From a virus, in the IMG/VR virus record IMGVR_UViG_3300020469_000090, positions 1 to 41,978 of that record: a DNA stretch of 41,978 bases. One strand, 5' to 3'. The position numbers and the translations under genes are program-made. The notes under the pieces are model-generated. The model saw only the letters and a list, made by a program, of their open reading frames with translations, made no database searches and was not told the DNA's origin. Shown here in pieces: positions 766 to 41,978 of the stretch. Position 1 is the first letter of the stretch. Each line of letters starts with the position of its first letter.

Positions 766-3700
766 ATGTCTGCTGAGGCGATAAGAAATATAGTTGATAG
801 GTGTTATGCAACACCGACTGGTATCCTAATGCCTAACACATTAGACCAGTTAAATCCTTTTGTACCATCAACATCATCACAAGGACCACAGCAACCTCAA
901 GTAGATCCTGGAGATGTTGTAAGAAATTTAGTTGGTAGATGTTATAGTGATCCAATACCTAACAAACCCAACCCATTAGACCCAGTAAATCCACCTCCAA
1001 CTGGTCCACCACCAGAGACAGCTGATCCACAACCAACTCCTCCAGAGATTATAAGGAGGTTGGTTGAGAGATGTTATCCAGATCTACCACCATTAGAACC
1101 AGTACCAGATGATCCTGATATACCTGATCTAACTACGCATATAGATTTTCCTTGGATACCTTGGCTTACTACTTGGCATTATGGACCACCTCCAGAGATA
1201 ACTATAACGATTCATCCTCCAACTCCACCTGGTACACCAATTATCAGGAAGATAACGAAGGACGGGGATGATTGTGCTTTAGTTGCGAAGTTTTTTAGAG
1301 AAGATCCACCACCAACAGGTCCACTTAGAGATCTTCCTGACTATGAAGAGATGAGGAATGGTAGACTATTAAAGTCACCTGGATGGTGGGAGCACACAGG
1401 GACTGGTGAAAAATATTATTGTGATCTTTCTGAACCATTCGATCCAGATTGGAGTGAGTGTGTAAGGAAGGCACAAGAGTGTATGTTCAGACAGTATGTG
1501 GGTGGAGGATGGAGACCACCCAAGGCAGACTGTAGTGCTTACTGGCCTAATGGATGGAGTGGTAACACTGGTGAAGTATGTGTAGAGAATTGTTACCCAG
1601 ATCGTATACCTATCTACGAGTCATACTATGGCACAGGCAATCTTAATGTGCAGTTTGATTCCTCTGGAAATATAGTTACCACTGGTAGTGGTACAGCTAC
1701 TGTCACATTAAAACTACAATGGAATGATAGACCGTCAACTTATGGTACTGCTGTCGATACTATATCAGTAGGAGGTAAGACATTTACTAGAGTTGGTAGA
1801 TCTGGAGAGCAGGTAGAGACTATTCAAATTACTACTGCTGGTACTCTTACTACTACCTTTACAGGATTACACGCAGCAAATAGCACTTTAAATATTGTAG
1901 ATAATAATACTAGGATCTGCATGAAGGATGGTGGTGGTAATGATTGTAATGCTAACTTCATAATAGTATCTACTAACAGTGCTTCTGACCATGCATACTA
2001 TTCTACTGGTGCTAAGGCAGGTTATACATTAACTGATAGTCAAGCAGTATTTTACATACTAAGGGAGGAGATAGCAAATGTAACTGTCCCATTGTTTAGA
2101 TTCTTTTCTACAAGCAACACAGATACATTCCTGACTACTAATCCAGGTCAACCTGATTCTCCTGGCGTAGGTGAGAGAGCAACCATGAATGCTTCTGGTC
2201 AGGGTGGAGGTGAAGTCATCGGACATATCTTCCCCACTGCAGCTAGCATGGCCAGCTATCTTGCTGAGGATGAGCAAGCAGAAGCATTGCATAGATTGTG
2301 GTCACCCAATCCATTTGATCACAAGTATACTATTGATGGTGACTATGCTGGTGGTTTTCCTGTGAAGTTACCAGATTATTTTGCATATCGTATACCCAAG
2401 TCACCTACAGCAGACGTTAGTATCCAAATGGATATTGAGAAAGGAGGAGCAGGATATGATAATGCTGTTGGATTCTACCTAGCAGATGAGACTGGACCCA
2501 AGTATGGAAGGATGGTATGTAACAGTGCTAGGAGTGGTACTGAAATGTATCATGCATACGTACCTTCTGCTAAACTAAACAACTATGCAGGAGGGACAAT
2601 GGGATTCTTCCTTATCCCTAATGGTGGTAATGATAATACACTTGTTTCCAATCAGGAAATAGTATTTGAGCAACTTAATGCTCCTTACAGTGGAGGATTC
2701 AGAGGCACAGGTATTCTTTCAGGACAGAGTAACTACATTCTCTTTAGTGATAGAAGATGGAATCCTAATGATAAAGACCAGACTAGGTGGCAAGGTAAAG
2801 ATATTCAGATGTGGGAAGACCTCATCGCAGGTGATGATGACTATGATGATCTAAGATTCTGGCATAAACTTTCTTACACCTTTGGTGGGTATACTTATGA
2901 GGGTATACAGGGTTATGTTTACTCGAAACTTCCACCACCTAAAGTGATGAGGAAGATAGATCCTCATGTTAAATGTGAGACTAGAATACTAGAGCGATCC
3001 TTTAAGGATGTGATGGTAAGACGCATGGACTGTGGTGTTAAGTTACCTACCATGCAACCAGGTAATGATCAGGACTGGGAGTGTGCTGCATGTAAGGATG
3101 ATAATAGGTGGTATGTAAACCCAGCAACATTAGCATGGCGTATTACTGACGGTGGAGGTACACAACTTACCAATTCAGTTTTGGAGAAGGGTAGTTGGGT
3201 ACAGGTAGGTGCATCAAATAATCCTGGTAATCCTTGGTCGCAGCACATGATTGACTATGGTATCTACCCAGTTGTACCACTAGATGATCAGACGGATCCA
3301 CACATAGGCACATGGCAAGTGCATACTTCAACATTCACTAGTGCTGGTGGTGATTACTATTTAAAAATAGAAACTGATAACTATGGATACGTTAAGATCA
3401 CGAATCCTAGTGGCAGTGTTATTGTAAACACTGAGATCAATTACTCTAATGGTTTTGGTAGTGAGACTCTTTATCTACAAAGTCTTAGTGCAGGTAATTA
3501 TACTCTAGAGACTAGGGTTATGAATTATAAGTGGGGCAATTATAATATTAGGTTAAATACTGAGCAGACTATAAAAGCAACAGCAATGGGTGGTACCATG
3601 AGATTCATCTCTATGGGTGGTATCACTGGTGGTATCTTTGGATCCTGTATGACCTTTACTCTTCAGATGAAGAAGAAGGATTCTACTGGTACTATTACAA

Positions 3701-5691
3701 CTTTATTCACCAAACAATACGAAGCAGACCATTGGCCTCGCATAGGAGGAGATTTATATGATCAGGACATTGTAATTTCAGGTGGAAATGCTACTGCTGA
3801 TCCTGTAGTACCACCAGATGAATTAATCTTTGAGTTTGTTAGTATTGATTCTGGTCCTGTTACTGGTGACATATCATTGGATTGTGGTTTCTATGATACT
3901 GAGCAGAAAACATTTGATGGAGTATTCAAACTGCATATTGGTACCCATTCAGGTGACATGTATATTGGAAAGAATCAAGGTAACCCAACTAATAACCCAG
4001 AGCCTAAAGAGGGTGGAGAGGTAGAAGGATTTGCATTATCATTCCGTCCTACTAATAGAGGAGAGTGGGAGTGGGAGCCTGGTTCTAAGTACAACGATTC
4101 ACTACCTAACCCTGCTGCTTACGATGATACTATTGACTATCTTATTAATGATACTGTTACTAATGCATCTAAGATTTATAGGGCTACTAGTAGTATATCT
4201 TCTGGTGGTGGAGCACCAACACATAGCTCAGGTACCAGTAGTAACTGGCAGTATGTGTCTGGTTTGAATGTTTCATGGGCAGAGGATAACGTACCTGATC
4301 CTGGATATCCATACACATATGTCTGGTATAATAATCAGATAGTATTAATGCATGGGTCACAGCAGTTAGAACCTGATGTTCCTGGTAATACTAGACTGTT
4401 TAATAATCCATTGCTTCCTAACATACAAGGTGGATACATAGACACTGGTTACCTGTATGATAAGAGTGATTATTTCTCTGAGACTATATTTAATGGCCAG
4501 CTTCCATCATACAACTATAGAAAACTAACTGGGTGTTACAACCACCTGGTAGAGGACTTCCTTATTACTAAGATAGACACCTTGAGTGGTACCACTATTT
4601 CAGAGGCACAGAATATTGTGCTGTCTGAATTCGCACCTAGTACCTTCGCACTAGGATCAAAATCTTGGTATGTTTTGGGAAGCGATGGCCAGATGAATAA
4701 ATGGTATGTTAACCCAGCATGTATAGCATGGCGTATCACTGAAGGATCCACTCAGGTTGCTACTTCTGTTGAGCATAAGGGTGACTGGGTAGTGATAGGT
4801 GAGCCAAATAATCCTGGTAATGGTTGGACACAGCACATGATTGACTATGGTATCTACAGAGTCAAACCAGATGATGATCAGATAGATCCTTACATAGGTG
4901 AGTGGCAGACACATACTGCTACTGTTAACTTCCCTAACTCAACCTCATACTCTATGAGAATAGAGTCTGATAACTGGGGATGGTTGAAGATTACAAACTC
5001 TAGTAACTCAGTAATATATGATGCTGAGATTACCTATACTGCTGGTGCAGGTGGTCAGACTATCCCCTTGACATTAGCGTCGGGAGACTATACTATAGAG
5101 ACTAGGGTCAAGAATAGGAATGTCCAAGGTGGTACGTATCAGGAAACAGTTGATGCCATATGGAATGGTAACGATCAGTCTCCAGTCAGGGATACCTACT
5201 ACTCACCAACGACATTCATACATGACTATACTCTGGATAATTATCATGGCACTGGTGGATCAAACTATGCAGATGCATGTAAGATTCGTATCGGTATCAC
5301 ATTCTATCCAATAACCTTTGATAAGACTACAGGATCTAAGCAGGTGCACTACTGGCAAGCACTAATTAATGTGATAGATGTTATAGATAAAGGCAAAGGG
5401 TATGCAAAGGGGTCAGAGTTTGTGCTAACATGGCCTCCTATGAGAGATAAAGCGGTAGAAGATCCAGCAACTACACCTTACTATCCTGATCAGGAATCAG
5501 GTTTTGCATTACCATCTAACAAGTTACTTGCGTGGTGGGAGAATGAAGACCTAGTAAGACGTAGTGTTAAGGAAGCATTCTATCAAGAGTCTCACAACAA
5601 AGACTCTGTAGTATGGTATAGTGCTACAGACAAAGCAAGATTCCGAGTTAAATTTAAGTTAACTCTTACACAAGTAACAGATCCACCTTAA
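766..5691 (+). CDS. Very large virion-type structural protein (1641 aa)
   Basis: I do not recognise a named family for the whole protein. The first ~130 residues are proline-rich and carry three copies of an R-x-(I/L)-V-x-R-C-Y motif at about residues 7-14, 53-60 and 97-104. Around residues 430-530 a RFF...TFLTT...LHRLW pattern resembles DUF5648-type repeats. Around 555-640 a YDNAVGFYLAD...GTMGFFLIPNGG pattern resembles DUF4114. A ~145-residue module occurs twice (about 780-925 and 1310-1452), sharing WYVNPA...AWRIT, NNPGN.W.QHMIDYGIY and IETD/IESD blocks. There is no signal peptide. Size, Gly/Ser/Thr-rich beta character and a late-promoter box upstream suggest a tail- or capsid-associated appendage. 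The role is inferred, not shown. Confidence 0.6.
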   Translation: MSAEAIRNIVDRCYATPTGILMPNTLDQLNPFVPSTSSQGPQQPQVDPGDVVRNLVGRCYSDPIPNKPNPLDPVNPPPTGPPPETADPQPTPPEIIRRLVERCYPDLPPLEPVPDDPDIPDLTTHIDFPWIPWLTTWHYGPPPEITITIHPPTPPGTPIIRKITKDGDDCALVAKFFREDPPPTGPLRDLPDYEEMRNGRLLKSPGWWEHTGTGEKYYCDLSEPFDPDWSECVRKAQECMFRQYVGGGWRPPKADCSAYWPNGWSGNTGEVCVENCYPDRIPIYESYYGTGNLNVQFDSSGNIVTTGSGTATVTLKLQWNDRPSTYGTAVDTISVGGKTFTRVGRSGEQVETIQITTAGTLTTTFTGLHAANSTLNIVDNNTRICMKDGGGNDCNANFIIVSTNSASDHAYYSTGAKAGYTLTDSQAVFYILREEIANVTVPLFRFFSTSNTDTFLTTNPGQPDSPGVGERATMNASGQGGGEVIGHIFPTAASMASYLAEDEQAEALHRLWSPNPFDHKYTIDGDYAGGFPVKLPDYFAYRIPKSPTADVSIQMDIEKGGAGYDNAVGFYLADETGPKYGRMVCNSARSGTEMYHAYVPSAKLNNYAGGTMGFFLIPNGGNDNTLVSNQEIVFEQLNAPYSGGFRGTGILSGQSNYILFSDRRWNPNDKDQTRWQGKDIQMWEDLIAGDDDYDDLRFWHKLSYTFGGYTYEGIQGYVYSKLPPPKVMRKIDPHVKCETRILERSFKDVMVRRMDCGVKLPTMQPGNDQDWECAACKDDNRWYVNPATLAWRITDGGGTQLTNSVLEKGSWVQVGASNNPGNPWSQHMIDYGIYPVVPLDDQTDPHIGTWQVHTSTFTSAGGDYYLKIETDNYGYVKITNPSGSVIVNTEINYSNGFGSETLYLQSLSAGNYTLETRVMNYKWGNYNIRLNTEQTIKATAMGGTMRFISMGGITGGIFGSCMTFTLQMKKKDSTGTITTLFTKQYEADHWPRIGGDLYDQDIVISGGNATADPVVPPDELIFEFVSIDSGPVTGDISLDCGFYDTEQKTFDGVFKLHIGTHSGDMYIGKNQGNPTNNPEPKEGGEVEGFALSFRPTNRGEWEWEPGSKYNDSLPNPAAYDDTIDYLINDTVTNASKIYRATSSISSGGGAPTHSSGTSSNWQYVSGLNVSWAEDNVPDPGYPYTYVWYNNQIVLMHGSQQLEPDVPGNTRLFNNPLLPNIQGGYIDTGYLYDKSDYFSETIFNGQLPSYNYRKLTGCYNHLVEDFLITKIDTLSGTTISEAQNIVLSEFAPSTFALGSKSWYVLGSDGQMNKWYVNPACIAWRITEGSTQVATSVEHKGDWVVIGEPNNPGNGWTQHMIDYGIYRVKPDDDQIDPYIGEWQTHTATVNFPNSTSYSMRIESDNWGWLKITNSSNSVIYDAEITYTAGAGGQTIPLTLASGDYTIETRVKNRNVQGGTYQETVDAIWNGNDQSPVRDTYYSPTTFIHDYTLDNYHGTGGSNYADACKIRIGITFYPITFDKTTGSKQVHYWQALINVIDVIDKGKGYAKGSEFVLTWPPMRDKAVEDPATTPYYPDQESGFALPSNKLLAWWENEDLVRRSVKEAFYQESHNKDSVVWYSATDKARFRVKFKLTLTQVTDPP
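781..1077 (+). repeat. Threefold RxxVxRCY peptide repeat in the 1641-aa protein
   Basis: Codons for IRNIVDRCY (781-807), VRNLVGRCY (919-945) and IRRLVERCY (1051-1077) recur every 44-46 residues, separated by proline-rich linkers. The spacing suggests three equivalent docking peptides or an N-terminal attachment region. Confidence 0.8.
3103..3540 (+). repeat. Internal module copy 1 of the 1641-aa protein
   Basis: Residues ~780-925. It shares WYVNPA, AWRIT, NNPGN, QHMIDYGIY and a C-terminal LETRV block in the same order with copy 2 at 4693-5121. This is an old internal duplication at clearly diverged identity. Confidence 0.85.
4693..5121 (+). repeat. Internal module copy 2 of the 1641-aa protein
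   Basis: Residues ~1310-1452. This is the second copy of the module at 3103-3540, with WYVNPA, AWRIT, NNPGN, QHMIDYGIY and IETRV in the same order. Confidence 0.85.
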
Positions 5692-35670: not shown

Positions 35671-38600
35671 ATGGCACTTACTCGTCTTAAGAATATTATC
35701 ACGTCGAGGACGGGACGTATTATATACGTTAACCCCGACGACTTTGACGCATCGGATGCATTTGACAACCGAGGTAACTCAGCATTGCGTCCATTTAAGA
35801 CGTTGCAACGTGCTTTCCTTGAGGTAGCACGATTTTCATATAGAGTTGGACTTTCAAACGACGAGTTTGATGCCTTCTCGATTTATCTGTACCCTTCGGA
35901 GTACGTAATTGATAACAGACCTGGTATAGCAGACTATAACCAGATCCAACCATTTAATGAGAATACAAACTTTGATCTCACCTCTGCTTCTAACGAGCTT
36001 TATAAATTCAATTCAACTCGTGGTGGTATTATCGCACCAAGGGGTGTGTCTGTTATAGGATCTGACCTTAGAAGAACTAAGATTACTCCTAAGTATGTAC
36101 CGTATCCAACAGTACAAGGATCATTAGGTATTACTGCTGCTAACGAACCAGTTCCTGCTGGTATATTCAAACTAACTGGTGGATGTTACTTCTGGCAGAT
36201 GTCATTCTTTGATGGTGATAACACTGGTGTATACTATCGTGATGACTTAGCTCAGATAGCTCCAAACTTCTCACACCACAAACTTACTTGCTTTGAGTTT
36301 GCTAACATAGAAGATCTAGAGTTATATTATCAGAAGATATCAAAAGGATACGCAGTTATCCCAGATACCTCTGGTGTGGTTGCACAAGACCAGATGCAGA
36401 CAAGGGTTGAGGAAAACAGAATTGTTGGTCCTATATCTGATGAATTTGCAGTATCGCAGATCATCCGTAATGGCCAGACAGCAACTGCATTTACCGTGGA
36501 TGCTCTTGGAAACCCCAAGAACCACGGTTTCTCTGTGGGTGTGGCAGTTAACATCTCTGGTGTTACTGGTCCTACTGATCAGGATGCTCTCCTTTATAAC
36601 GGATCATTCCTAGTTACCTCAGCACAGGGTAACCAATTTACTTACCAGTTGTCTTCCGAGCCATCAGGTAATGCACTAGGTAGCAACATCCTAGTTAAGG
36701 TCGAGATTGATACAGTTGACTCTGCATCACCATATGTCTTCAACTGCTCATTAAGATCAGTATGGGGTATCAATGGTATGGCTGCTGATGGTAGTCAAGC
36801 AACTGGTTTCAAATCGATGGTTGTTGCCCAGTTTACAGGTATATCGCTACAGAAAGATGATAGAGCGTTCGTACTTTACAACCAAACTACTGGAGCATAT
36901 GAAGCTCAAGCTGCGGGCTCTGGTGCTCACATTAATGGACTCGCCAAATACCGAAAAGGGTGGCGACACAGACATATATTCGCAGCAAATGACGCATTCA
37001 TCCAAGTCGTTTCCGTCTTCGCAGTTGGATTCGGAGATCATTTCTTCGCTGACTCAGGAGGAGATCTCTCGATTACCAACTCGAACTCAAACTTTGGTAA
37101 CACTTCTCTTAGGTCTAAAGGATTTAAGAGTGCGTCATTCACGAAAGACAAAGCTGGACAGTTAACTCATGTTATACCACCTAAGTCTTTAGATGATGTT
37201 TCTGAAATATCAGTTAACTGGATTACTGTTGATATTACTAAGACACGAAGTGTTGCAGACCCAACGAAACTATACTTATATGGATATACTGTAGAGACAG
37301 GTAAACCACCAAGTAAGGTTCAGGGTTATACTGTGGGTGCTAGACGTGATGACGTTAATACTCCAGATAGACTCTACGTTCTCTTGATCGCTTCTGGTGC
37401 TAGTGAACCTACTACACACTATGCAGATGTATCACCTAGTGGTAGCACAGTAACAGGTACTAGTGCTGGTGATGATGAGTCACCACTCAAGTGGGATAGT
37501 ACTAATGGGCAGTGGTATTTACAGGTAGATGGTACTGCTAATACCATATACACTACACTACAAGCAAACAGTATCTACCAGAACTTAGGATTCACACCAA
37601 CAACATTTATCAGAAGGGTACCCGATGCACGTAACTTGGTTGATAGGGTTTACAGGTACCGCTATGTATTGGACAAAGATGCATTCCCCGTTCCTAGACC
37701 ACCTATTACAGGTTATGTCATACAACCCCGCAGTAGTGAGACAAATAGTCCAGCATACAGTAAAACCTATTACATATATGCTGTAGAGACACATCAAGTA
37801 TTTGTTAAGGGTGTTACCGACGGTATATATTATTTGACGTTACTTAATGCTAGTGTATCTCCATCAACATCTAACTTCAATGACTTTGCATTCTCGCAAC
37901 CAGTTGTTGATCTATATCCTGCATTTGATAGAGACAACCCAGTAGCAGATCCAGCAGCAGCAGTTTGTATTGCAAGCAATGAAACTCTTGGTGTTATTAC
38001 TACTACTGATGGTGCATCTCCTACTCCTAATGAGGATAAGCAGAGATCTCTTACTAAAGAAACCTCACAGTTTATTTTACTAGAGTCTGAAAATAACCTA
38101 GGATATAATACTACCAGTAACGTATTGAATAATATTAGTGTTACTGCAAGACTAGGTGATGCTGAAGAAAGAAAGATTGCACTCAAACTAAATGCTGATA
38201 ACTCAGTGCAACCTATACTCTGCGAGTTGAGACGTTACTCAATTCTAAGAGCATCAGGTCACACGTTTGAGTATCTTGGATTTGGTCCAGGTAACTATTC
38301 AACTGCATTCCCATCTACACAGGTGGAAGTGCTCACTCCTGCCCAAGTTAGACTATCACAGTCACTTAAGGAAGGTGCAGGTGTTGCATACTACTCTGGT
38401 GTTAACAGTGATGGTGAGTTATTTGTTGGTAACCAGGTTATTAACCCAGTTACAGGTCAGATCACTAATGAAGATATTGCTCAACTTAATGTGTTGGGTG
38501 AGGAAGGTACCACTATTGAGACCTTCAGTGAGGTTGTGCTTACCGATAAACTAACAGTTATTGGTGGTGCATCTAACCAGTTAGAATCAGTATTCTCTGG

Positions 38601-39240
38601 TCCTGTCACATTCCAGAAGAAGATGACAGCACAAGAGTTACAGACTCTAAACTTTACATTATCTAATGATGATGGTACTTATTTGAAGAAGACATTCCTT
38701 GCTGAGGATGATGGTACTGGTAATCCTACTGTGGTTGCTGGTACTGCATATAATAGTGGGGATATAGCATATAATGTAGATTGGACTCCAGGTACATACT
38801 TGGGATGGATCTATGATAATGGTGATTGGTATAAGTTTGGTCTAAGTGATACTGCACCTATTACCTCTAACAGGTACTCAGGTGTCACTCATTATGGTAT
38901 TGGTGAAGCACCAGACGCTGCTAATAGAATGAAGATCTCTGGTAATGTGAAAGTTACTGGTGATATTGATGTAACTGGTAAGTATGGTTGTGCTGATAAG
39001 TATGCTCTCGCAACGGGTGTTAGCTTAGGAAATAATGGTACAATGTATGCTGGTAATGGAGTAACAACTGCGTTTGCAATTTCTCCAGGTCATACTCCAT
39101 ATTCTGTAATGGTATTCTTAAATGGTGTTTGTCAGGTACCTGGCGTTGATTACACCGTTACTGGTAATGCTGTAGATTTCTCCATCTCGACTACTCCTGC
39201 GACTGGTGATAATGTGCAGATACGTGAGTTAGTTATCTAA
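35671..39240 (+). CDS. Large tail-fibre or tailspike-like protein (1189 aa)
   Basis: The N-terminus (TGRIIYVNPDDFDASDAFDNRGNSALRPFKTLQRAFLEVARFSY) has the YVNP....D...G......P.KTLQ.A pattern of parallel beta-helix tailspikes. The middle is beta-rich with no clear enzyme residues. Near the end, KISGNVKVTGDIDVTGKYG and GVTTAFAISPGHTPYSVMVFLNGVCQVPGVDYTV are recurring phage structural modules. The gene is by far the largest in the fibre cluster and probably a virion appendage or receptor-interacting component. It begins 28 bp after a late box. Confidence 0.65.
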   Translation: MALTRLKNIITSRTGRIIYVNPDDFDASDAFDNRGNSALRPFKTLQRAFLEVARFSYRVGLSNDEFDAFSIYLYPSEYVIDNRPGIADYNQIQPFNENTNFDLTSASNELYKFNSTRGGIIAPRGVSVIGSDLRRTKITPKYVPYPTVQGSLGITAANEPVPAGIFKLTGGCYFWQMSFFDGDNTGVYYRDDLAQIAPNFSHHKLTCFEFANIEDLELYYQKISKGYAVIPDTSGVVAQDQMQTRVEENRIVGPISDEFAVSQIIRNGQTATAFTVDALGNPKNHGFSVGVAVNISGVTGPTDQDALLYNGSFLVTSAQGNQFTYQLSSEPSGNALGSNILVKVEIDTVDSASPYVFNCSLRSVWGINGMAADGSQATGFKSMVVAQFTGISLQKDDRAFVLYNQTTGAYEAQAAGSGAHINGLAKYRKGWRHRHIFAANDAFIQVVSVFAVGFGDHFFADSGGDLSITNSNSNFGNTSLRSKGFKSASFTKDKAGQLTHVIPPKSLDDVSEISVNWITVDITKTRSVADPTKLYLYGYTVETGKPPSKVQGYTVGARRDDVNTPDRLYVLLIASGASEPTTHYADVSPSGSTVTGTSAGDDESPLKWDSTNGQWYLQVDGTANTIYTTLQANSIYQNLGFTPTTFIRRVPDARNLVDRVYRYRYVLDKDAFPVPRPPITGYVIQPRSSETNSPAYSKTYYIYAVETHQVFVKGVTDGIYYLTLLNASVSPSTSNFNDFAFSQPVVDLYPAFDRDNPVADPAAAVCIASNETLGVITTTDGASPTPNEDKQRSLTKETSQFILLESENNLGYNTTSNVLNNISVTARLGDAEERKIALKLNADNSVQPILCELRRYSILRASGHTFEYLGFGPGNYSTAFPSTQVEVLTPAQVRLSQSLKEGAGVAYYSGVNSDGELFVGNQVINPVTGQITNEDIAQLNVLGEEGTTIETFSEVVLTDKLTVIGGASNQLESVFSGPVTFQKKMTAQELQTLNFTLSNDDGTYLKKTFLAEDDGTGNPTVVAGTAYNSGDIAYNVDWTPGTYLGWIYDNGDWYKFGLSDTAPITSNRYSGVTHYGIGEAPDAANRMKISGNVKVTGDIDVTGKYGCADKYALATGVSLGNNGTMYAGNGVTTAFAISPGHTPYSVMVFLNGVCQVPGVDYTVTGNAVDFSISTTPATGDNVQIRELVI

Positions 39241-39264: not shown

Positions 39265-40131
39265 ATGTCCACCAAGATTATAGGAACCCAGATTGATCAA
39301 GCGACCAGAGCAATAATGACTGCTCTCTCGGTTACAGAGCAAATCAATCTACCTAGTCTAAACCAAACAGCAGTCAATGCTTTAGGCACACCTGCTTATG
39401 GTACTTTGGTGTACAATAGTACTGAAGATGCTGCCCAGATGTGGAAAGCAGACTCTGGTGGAGCACCAGGTTGGGCAAGTGTTGGAGGAGGTGGTCCTTC
39501 TATTGGTGAGAATAGCATCATCAGGACTAATGGTCCAACTATTTCTGAAAATTTATCAGTAGGTCCTACTGCCAATGCTGGTGCTGAGTTTACAAATGGT
39601 TTTAGTGCAGGTCCAATTACAATAGCAAATGGTTACACAGTAACTATTGAAAATGGAGCAACGTGGAACATACTTGGTGGTGATGATTATTCAACCTTTG
39701 AGGTTAATGACATCATTGCTAGTAATGGAATGATTCATAACCTTACATCTAAACGTAGAGAAGACGTAGTACATTCTGTTACTGATAATAGTACCGTAAC
39801 CCACTCATTAAATAATGGTAGTGTACTTTGGATTACTAGGGAATCTGGAGGAGACTTTAGTCTTTATATAAATGATGTACCTAGTGGTACTGGTAATGTT
39901 TATCATTTAAAAGTCTTTATGGAAGAGGCAGGTGCTAATGATAGACCTACTACCATTTATATAAATGGTAACCGTCATGATGTACAGTGGGAGAATGGTG
40001 GTCTGAATGGATCAGATTACAAATATCATATGACATGGTTTGAGATATTTGATAAACCAAACCCCGAAGGTGGTTATAATGATGATGATAATTATATCGT
40101 ATTTGGAACTGGCAACCGCTATCAACCATAA
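39265..40131 (+). CDS. Tail fibre-like virion protein (288 aa)
   Basis: Opening IGTQIDQATRAIMTALSVTEQINLPSLN, then GTPAYGTLVYNSTEDAAQMWK, the fibre module seen in many phages (Y...G.LVYN......Q.W). The remainder is Gly/Thr/Asn-rich beta, with DRPTTIYINGNRHDVQWENGG and a closing FGTGNRY. No cysteine-rich or enzymatic motif. It precedes the tandem Gly-rich genes; perhaps the shaft to which they attach. Confidence 0.6.
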   Translation: MSTKIIGTQIDQATRAIMTALSVTEQINLPSLNQTAVNALGTPAYGTLVYNSTEDAAQMWKADSGGAPGWASVGGGGPSIGENSIIRTNGPTISENLSVGPTANAGAEFTNGFSAGPITIANGYTVTIENGATWNILGGDDYSTFEVNDIIASNGMIHNLTSKRREDVVHSVTDNSTVTHSLNNGSVLWITRESGGDFSLYINDVPSGTGNVYHLKVFMEEAGANDRPTTIYINGNRHDVQWENGGLNGSDYKYHMTWFEIFDKPNPEGGYNDDDNYIVFGTGNRYQP

Positions 40132-40156: not shown

Positions 40157-40966
40157 ATGGCACAGTTAAACTTAGGAGCTATTAAAGATCTCGGAGGCAT
40201 TGGTGGATTTACTTTCTCAAGTGGAGGTATAACTGCTAATGGTACTCTTAATGTACAAGACATTGAGATAACAGGAAGTGTTTCTGGATCTTCTAGTTAC
40301 CTATTACCTAGTCCGTCTGGACATACAGATGAATATATTTCAACTAATGGATCATCATTGACATGGGGCAGTTTATCCTCTGCTTCTGGTGTAAGATCCA
40401 TGCAAGTATGGACTAACAATGGTACTTGGTATAGACCTAGTGGTGTAAAAACTATCATGGTTACTGTTACTGGTGCAGGTGGTGGTGGATCAGGATATGG
40501 TGAAGGAGGGGGTGCTGGAGGTACAGCACAACGTCAGTTAGATGTTACTAATATTTCTTCAGTTAACGTATCTGTAGGAAACCCAGGTAGTGGTACTAGT
40601 TACTCTGGATGTGGAGGCAGTGGTAATACGTCCTCATTTGGTAGTTATTGTAATGCTTCTGGTGGAATTGGTGCTAACTGTTCTCAAAACAGAGCAGGAG
40701 GATATGGTGGTAACGGATCTGGTGGAACATTAAATGTATATGGTGGTGGTGGATATGGTCACGCATCTCACTATTCATATGGTAACCTTTCAAGGGCAGC
40801 ATCTTATTGGGGTGGATCACAACCAAATAGTCATAACCAAAGCAGTTATGCCTATAACCATCAATCTCATTGTGCATGGGGATCAGGTGGATCTGGAGCA
40901 CAGCATAGTTCTAGAGGAGCAGGTGGTCGTGATGGTGTGATAGTCGTCCATGAATTCTACGGCTAA
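40157..40966 (+). CDS. Glycine-rich adhesin-like tail protein, copy 1 (269 aa)
   Basis: Residues 1-60 form a fibre-type N-terminus (GGFTFSSGGITANGTLNVQDIEITGS), residues ~80-100 are SMQVWTNNGTWYRPSGVKTI, and from ~105 the chain is Gly-rich with short polar blocks: GAGGGGSGYGEGGGAGG, SGCGGSGN, GGYGGNGSGG, YGGGGYGH. It ends GAGGRDGVIVVHEFYG. This Gly-motif pattern with variable inserts recalls the polyglycine-II sandwich of gp38-type adhesins. Likely a receptor-binding tip. Copy 2 is the same length, and a third copy follows. Confidence 0.7.
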   Translation: MAQLNLGAIKDLGGIGGFTFSSGGITANGTLNVQDIEITGSVSGSSSYLLPSPSGHTDEYISTNGSSLTWGSLSSASGVRSMQVWTNNGTWYRPSGVKTIMVTVTGAGGGGSGYGEGGGAGGTAQRQLDVTNISSVNVSVGNPGSGTSYSGCGGSGNTSSFGSYCNASGGIGANCSQNRAGGYGGNGSGGTLNVYGGGGYGHASHYSYGNLSRAASYWGGSQPNSHNQSSYAYNHQSHCAWGSGGSGAQHSSRGAGGRDGVIVVHEFYG

Positions 40967-40969
40967 ATA
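40963..40969 (+). promoter_or_regulatory. T4-type late promoter box CTAAATA
   Basis: It lies 28 bp before copy 2; TAA is the stop codon of copy 1. Confidence 0.6.
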
Positions 40970-40990
40970 ATAACAAGGATACATTAACTC

Positions 40991-41800
40991 ATGTCAAAAC
41001 TTAAAGTATCAGCATTAAAAGACTTAACAGGAGCACAGGGATTCATGCTCGCTGGTGGTGGTATCACTGCGTCTACGACATTAACAGTATCTAACATTGT
41101 TGTTAATGGTGAGATTAAAACCCAAAGTACCTACTTCGTACCACCTGTAGGTGGACATTCAGGTAAAGCACTCAAATCTACGGGTAGTGCTTTTGAATGG
41201 TCTGGAGTGTCTGGTGGTGGTGGAATACGAAGTATGCAATCATGGACCAACAACGGTACATGGTATAGACCTACTGGTGTAACAACTATTATTGTTACAG
41301 TTGTAGGTGCTGGTGGCGGGGGATCTGGATTCTGCGAGTCAGGTGGTGCTGGTGGAATGTCAGAGCGAGTTATTGATGTTACTAACGTATCATCAGTTAA
41401 CGTTAGTTGTGGAAATCCAGGTGGTGGTACAAACTACTCTGGATGTGGTGGTAACGGTAATACATCATCATTCGGATCATATTGCAATGCTTCTGGAGGA
41501 ATTGGTGCTAACTGTTCCCAAAACAGATGCGGAGGATATGGTGGAAATGGTTCAGGTGGTAACCTAAATGTATATGGTGGTGGTGGAAATGGTCATGGAT
41601 CTTACTGGTCATTTGGTAACCACACTGGTGGAACATCATTTATAGGAGGTAGTCAACCTTGTTCACATAACCAAAATAACTACGCATATAACCATCAATC
41701 TCATGCTGCATGGGGTGCTGGTGGAAATGGTACGAGACATGGATCTCGTGGTGCTGGTGGTCGTAATGGTTGCGTTATAGTTCAGGAGTTTTACGGATGA
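40991..41800 (+). CDS. Glycine-rich adhesin-like tail protein, copy 2 (269 aa)
   Basis: Same architecture as copy 1 with differences mostly in two regions: the N-terminal module (GAQGFMLAGGGITASTTLTV) and the inserts around residues 205-235 (GSYWSFGNHTGGTSFIGGSQPC against HASHYSYGNLSRAASYWGGSQP in copy 1). Conserved blocks are WTNNGTWYRP.GV.TI, NTSSFGSYCNASGGIGANCSQNR, NHQSH.AWG and GAGGR.G...V.EFYG. It carries additional cysteines (CESGG, VSCGNP, RCGGYG, QPCSHN). Its stop overlaps the start of copy 3 (ATGA). Confidence 0.7.
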   Translation: MSKLKVSALKDLTGAQGFMLAGGGITASTTLTVSNIVVNGEIKTQSTYFVPPVGGHSGKALKSTGSAFEWSGVSGGGGIRSMQSWTNNGTWYRPTGVTTIIVTVVGAGGGGSGFCESGGAGGMSERVIDVTNVSSVNVSCGNPGGGTNYSGCGGNGNTSSFGSYCNASGGIGANCSQNRCGGYGGNGSGGNLNVYGGGGNGHGSYWSFGNHTGGTSFIGGSQPCSHNQNNYAYNHQSHAAWGAGGNGTRHGSRGAGGRNGCVIVQEFYG

Positions 41801-41978
41801 GCGTTCTTAAAGTTAATCACGTTAGTGATATAGCAGGTCTTGGAGGATTTACTTTCTCTAGTGGATCTATTACCTGTAATGGTACATTAAAAGTTGGTAA
41901 CATAGCAATTAACGGTAGTATATCAGGATCATCATCCTATATTATTCCGTCTATGAGTGGTCAGTCAGGAAAATTCCT
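41797..41978 (+). CDS. Glycine-rich adhesin-like tail protein, copy 3 (5' part only)
   Basis: Starts at ATG 41797, overlapping the stop of copy 2 (TGA at 41798-41800), and is open to the window end (60 codons visible). The visible N-terminus MSVLKVNHVSDIAGLGGFTF, then SSGSIT, NGTLKV and SGSSSYIIPSMSG, is homologous to residues 1-60 of copies 1 and 2 and closer to copy 1. Unlike copies 1 and 2 it has no late box of its own. Confidence 0.75.
   Translation, partial: MSVLKVNHVSDIAGLGGFTFSSGSITCNGTLKVGNIAINGSISGSSSYIIPSMSGQSGKF

Follow-up and report, generated by a model that had tools for sequence, protein, structure and literature searches.

A conserved row of candidate tail-fiber tip genes with position-specific stems and matched glycine-rich domains in marine T4-like cyanophages

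Results

Gene content of the locus

The stretch of DNA analyzed here (the window) spans the 41,978 bases of an IMG/VR virus record, for which no end repeats are reported. It represents part of the genome of a T4-like marine cyanophage and encodes structural proteins of T4-like type (single-strand binding protein, baseplate wedge, hub/lysozyme, and tail-fiber families); its nearest isolate over the fiber region is cyanophage P-TIM40, at ~73% identity with 64% of the last 5 kb covered. The window ends in a row of glycine-rich paralogues, two of them complete and a third cut off, directly downstream of two genes that are also neighbors of the row in relatives (Table 1); the start codon of the third overlaps the stop codon of the second in an ATGA. 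At the other end, positions 766-5691 encode a 1641-aa protein in which six stretches match phrog_26996 (unknown function) and part of which resembles a major head protein family.

Table 1. Features of the row, its neighbors and, from a related locus, the downstream block
Feature	Position	Strand	Remarks
1189-aa tail-fiber protein, conserved neighbor	35671..39240	+	phrog_529 tail fiber protein, 1738 bits
288-aa protein directly upstream of the row, conserved neighbor	39265..40131	+	phrog_29506
Copy 1, complete paralogue	40157-40966	+	269 aa, Gly-rich
Copy 1 N-terminal part, aa 1-78, position-1 type	40157..40390	+	86% identity to relatives' position-1 copies, 37% to copy 2
Copy 1 beta-sandwich (TNF-like), glycine-rich domain and stop	40391..40966	+	PF21722
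Copy 2, complete paralogue	40991-41800	+	269 aa, Gly-rich
Copy 2 N-terminal part, aa 1-78, position-2 type	40991..41224	+	76% identity to relatives' position-2 copies
Copy 2 beta-sandwich (TNF-like), glycine-rich domain and stop	41225..41800	+	PF21722; Pam3-fiber fold match
Copy 3, first 60 codons, position-3 type, cut by window end	41797..41978	+	
Downstream halogenase block, example from a relative	L003:10263-13356		

A sequence-only reading of this region had proposed three tandem paralogues that share fixed blocks and vary in inserts between the Gly-rich motifs. Copies 1 and 2 bear this out in that they lie in tandem and have WTNNGTWYRP, SFGSYCNASGG, NHQSH, and EFYG in common, but the window ends 60 codons into copy 3, before the blocks would be reached. 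Nor are the blocks all fixed across the family: among 148 aligned copies, WTNNGTWYRP is found in 3, and CNA/NASGG (CNASGG), SQNR, and YAYN are each found in 2, both from the window. There are no inserts, since copies 1 and 2 align without gaps over the same length and differ by substitutions.

Family and predicted fold

Both complete copies pass the curated cut-off (24.3 bits) of Pfam PF21722 (Gly_rich_2), copy 1 with 29.8 bits over residues 89-261 and copy 2 with 26.8 bits, and both match phrog_863 strongly; each of these families occurs in a tail context. A sequence search of solved structures gave no usable match, returning only linker-rich antibody chains that matched by composition. AlphaFold2, run on a 47-row alignment, produced one confident model out of five (mean pLDDT 79.9, versus 56-59 for the others), which is good beyond about residue 80 and leaves the first 50 residues unresolved; any comparison with an N-terminal helical docking domain rests on this low-confidence part. 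The best solved match of the copy 2 model, which we used for fold comparison, was the Pam3 tail fiber gp24 (7ypx_A; Z 20.1, 178 residues, rmsd 2.5, 29% identity), with further matches to the Bxb1 tail tip (Z 15.2) and to the TG domains of ALK/LTK (Z ~9). The complete copies are thus predicted to consist of a ~78-residue N-terminal part and a Gly_rich_2 domain folded like the distal half of Pam3 gp24, and the predicted model has both the beta-sandwich and the glycine-rich lattice that mark the distal domain of fibers of this type. The Gly_rich_2 family, the Pam3 fiber fold match, the tail-fiber neighbors, and the variation between the glycines support the tail-fiber tip or adhesin role that had been suggested from sequence.

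That variation is pronounced. From residue 106 onward, 45 glycine columns are nearly invariant (mean 0.03 bits), whereas the other columns of the Gly-rich domain average 0.70 bits, with columns 212, 215, 227, and 229 the most variable; the earlier expectation that variable residues would be concentrated between the glycine motifs, a trait of gp38-type adhesins, is borne out.

Conservation of the row

Three scans of viral contigs (queried with copies 2 and 1 of the window and with copy 3 from a relative), together with annotated isolates, yielded 59 distinct loci, of which 38 have three members, 19 have two, and two have one when partial copies are counted. Counting complete sets only, there are 36 triplets (26 once near-identical ones are removed) and 15 doublets (9 on the same basis). 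Two copies are characteristic of a sister group, and other relatives carry exactly three, including the far more divergent isolates S-RIM44 and Sf-FP1. In each of the 38 non-redundant loci, homologues of the 1189-aa fiber protein and of the 288-aa protein precede the row, and in relatives the row is always placed between tail-fiber genes and tryptophan-halogenase genes. The three-gene row is of old origin and has stayed stable.

Some members of the family depart from the common form. In one group the middle copy (copy 2) has an extra C-terminal domain of ~260 aa (L042:8001-9590, L003:7415-9004, L027, L044, L051, and L040), which in L048, L049, L023, and L036 is a separate upstream gene; this domain matches fibrinogen-like folds weakly (COLFI, E 0.022; serum lectin, E 0.047), and folding it gave no confident model (pLDDT 33). 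In S-CREM1 (L008:7001-7369) the first tip gene is annotated to end at 122 residues, and family similarity runs on downstream, so that the end may be a true break or a sequencing error. The second tip gene of syn9 (L006:7807-9079) contains a long exact internal tandem repeat, with an offset of ~477 bases, that alters the reading frame and is not present in Syn10.

Separate histories of the two protein parts

Copies that share a position across phages resemble one another far more closely over the first 78 residues than paralogues do. In a tree of N-terminal parts, copy 1 clusters with position-1 rows and copy 2 falls in the clade of position-2 rows, and the 60 N-terminal residues of copy 3 reach 82% identity to third-position copies elsewhere, compared with 55% to copy 1 and 45% to copy 2. 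It had been noticed that copy 3 resembles copy 1 more than copy 2, and gene conversion or stepwise duplication had been offered as the reason. The resemblance is real, but the identities and trees indicate orthology and rule out a recent duplication of copy 1 into copy 3: copy 3 is, by its sequence, an old position-specific paralogue whose likeness to copy 1 reflects old paralogy, so that neither a recent conversion nor a stepwise duplication has to be invoked.

We assessed co-variation among the paralogues of a genome by permutation tests, with the N-terminal part as an internal control. Among triplets, paralogue identity in the N-terminal part was not higher within genomes than between them (z -0.7 to 0.9), whereas from residue 80 on, across the beta-sandwich and Gly-rich parts, within-genome amino acid identity exceeded between-genome identity for all three copy pairs (z 5.1-8.4). 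Doublets showed the same within-genome excess from residue 80 on (z 3.5-3.6). Position labels change 5 times in the N-terminal tree (minimum 4) and 15 times in the C-terminal tree. The tips of one genome are not identical, and some columns near 205-218 are still position-specific. At the level of sequence, then, N-terminal parts track array position and Gly-rich domains co-vary within a genome.

Recombination and selection

One contig, L074, lacks a copy, and its copy 1 tracks copy 1 of L014 to about column 159 and copy 2 of L014 from about column 167. This join of copies 1 and 2 is possibly the product expected of unequal crossing-over, although L074, like the other contigs, is a metagenome assembly, in which an assembly error or chimera is also possible. 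Runs of identical DNA between paralogues average 29 bases within genomes versus 19 between them, and synonymous identity in the beta-sandwich part is ~0.56 within genomes versus 0.47. These observations support recombination among the copies, as the sequence-only reading had proposed. In the Gly-rich part the within-genome synonymous excess is small (~0.52 versus 0.49), and there is a slight excess in the N-terminal part as well; because of this, gene conversion and co-selection are inseparable in the Gly-rich part, where selection for a single receptor may likewise keep the copies alike. The Gly-rich domain has a mean dN/dS of ~0.13, against 0.24 for the N-terminal part, and a comparison of these rates across copies and relatives, proposed earlier as a check on a receptor-binding repertoire, gave on average no sign of diversifying selection.

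A diversity-generating retroelement acting on these genes was ruled out by the lack of a reverse transcriptase: RVT_1 matched none of 10 records, five of them isolate genomes, but did match the control genomes.

Halogenase genes downstream of the row

Just downstream of the row, all 38 loci encode a small phrog_1787-type protein together with one or two tryptophan halogenases, and genes for 2OG-Fe oxygenases and cupins usually come next. These loci were retrieved via the row and have a common ancestry, so they do not count as independent cases. In the isolates, the row and a halogenase at least 37% identical to that of P-TIM40 occur in one and the same set of 20 records. Such a halogenase is found without the row in Sf-CH11 and Sf-CH1a, and in Sf-CH11 another PF21722 protein lies upstream of it, with two 2OG-oxygenase genes between. 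The Syn10 gene in this downstream block is VirX1 (solved structure 6QGM), a viral flavin-dependent halogenase that prefers iodide and was tested in vitro on synthetic aromatic substrates (PMC8407142).

Discussion

The different histories of the two protein parts raise the question of what the row is for. We consider it reasonably probable that its genes encode distal receptor-binding fiber tips that combine position-specific stems with mutually homogenized binding ends; their location at the fiber end, their binding of a receptor, and the single specificity are what we infer. The position-specific N-terminal part probably docks each copy at its own place on the fiber apparatus. Next would come a beta-sandwich and then a lattice built of glycine-rich strands, with the residues other than glycine turned, by analogy with Pam3 gp24, toward the host surface. 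Recombination between copies, with similarity starting at about residue 80, and shared selection would keep the binding domains of one genome alike, a cause of the co-variation that the present data show in part. In this way the phage would display a single binding specificity at several docking sites, and an alteration arising in one copy could pass to the others.

An alternative source of the co-variation is packing, with two or three paralogues forming one heteromeric tip whose C-terminal domains change together. The copy number, fixed at three or two, is consistent with such an assembly, as are the share of the beta-sandwich part in the co-variation and the trimeric state of Pam3 gp24 (PMC9608196). 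However, the N-terminal parts do not co-vary, even though the N-terminal part makes most of the trimer contacts in Pam3, two-copy genomes exist, and coordinated columns such as 171, 176, 183, 227, 229, and 248 sit in Gly-rich loops, all of which makes a mixed tip unlikely.

The sequence-only reading had favored a receptor repertoire, in which the three tips recognize different receptors and duplication and recombination shift the host range. The tips do differ at non-glycine columns, most at 205-218 and 227-229, and recombination among copies occurs. Against this, paralogues of one genome resemble each other in the Gly-rich part more closely than paralogues of different genomes do, more than expected and not diversified, and dN/dS points to purifying selection. 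We therefore do not favor a repertoire and judge it quite unlikely; the row looks like one specificity shown several times, from matched copies. That the proteins are tail-fiber assembly chaperones, as the phrog_863 label and RefSeq product names ('tail fiber assembly') have it, is rejected as barely credible, because the predicted fold is that of the Pam3 fiber gp24 and not of the Pam3 chaperone gp25, and because 'gp38' of syn9 (NC_008296.2) is a serial ORF number in the run gp35, gp36, gp37, gp38, gp39 and need not mean T4 gp38. The label is misleading, and the PHROGs/RefSeq product name may stem from confusion with T4 gp38.

These putative fiber tips, with matched ends on distinct stems, can be set beside several known glycine-rich proteins. 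The gp38 adhesins of S16, T2, and PP01 resemble them in having Gly-rich motifs with variable stretches between, in belonging to T4-like phages, and in being encoded after the tail-fiber genes. Membership in the S16/T2 gp38 family, which had been suggested from these motifs, is rejected at the family level with S16 gp38 as the yardstick: the copies match PF21722 only and neither PF05268 nor PF21721, the two families of S16 gp38, and comparison with S16 gp38 found no sequence relation (hhalign probability 1.4; BLASTP E 2.2). S16 gp38 also differs in being a single gene after gene 37. Its structure combines a beta-helix with a three-layer lattice (PMC9608196); 6F45, which represents the gp38-type fold of beta-helix and polyglycine-II sandwich, was absent among the matches listed by Foldseek/VIA, and this settles nothing. 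By analogy, the window proteins may function as gp38-type adhesins do while standing outside that family.

Pam3 gp24 (PDB 7YPX, 7YFW) is a closer likeness, with a beta-sandwich followed by a glycine-rich domain and variable residues between its glycine motifs, the variable distal ends of which are the proposed receptor sites (PMC9608196). Pam3, however, has one fiber protein whose N-terminal helical domain docks on the baseplate, whereas here there are three tandem paralogues with a different N-terminal part. The families PF21722 Gly_rich_2 and phrog_863, matched by both complete copies, are by their names silent on the three-gene row and on the division into stem and binding domain. The TG (glycine-rich) domain of ALK/LTK has the same overall fold as the model, but it belongs to an animal receptor and is only a distant fold match. 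In the haloarchaeal viruses of Hafunavirus, the glycine-rich tail-fiber adhesin lies in a hypervariable region and is inferred to set host range (PMC8651126); it is comparable to the window proteins by description and is encoded by one adhesin gene. We found no description of this tandem row in the literature searched. The row probably encodes a further form of glycine-rich fiber tip, itself a known kind of protein; what sets it apart is that stems specific to each position carry binding domains that match, all within a conserved row.

The halogenase genes next to the row invite a further speculation, which we regard as distinctly improbable. The adjacent halogenases and 2OG-Fe oxygenases could halogenate or hydroxylate Tyr, Trp, or His residues in the Gly-rich ends of the tips, which are rich in these three residues, and this would make the tips the natural substrate of VirX1. 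Protection from antibiotics was suggested earlier for cyanophage halogenases (PMC2984593), and the linkage may also reflect mere shared inheritance of a block of late genes.

For marine T4-like cyanophages, whose receptors and receptor-binding proteins are poorly known, these results name candidate tip genes in the culturable phages P-TIM40, Syn9/Syn10, and S-RIM44, predict the residues that set specificity, and correct a misleading annotation. The strict linkage of the row with VirX1-type halogenases makes the question of the substrate of those viral enzymes directly testable. More generally, the row offers a natural case in which paralogous tips are kept matched within a genome and their stems remain distinct.
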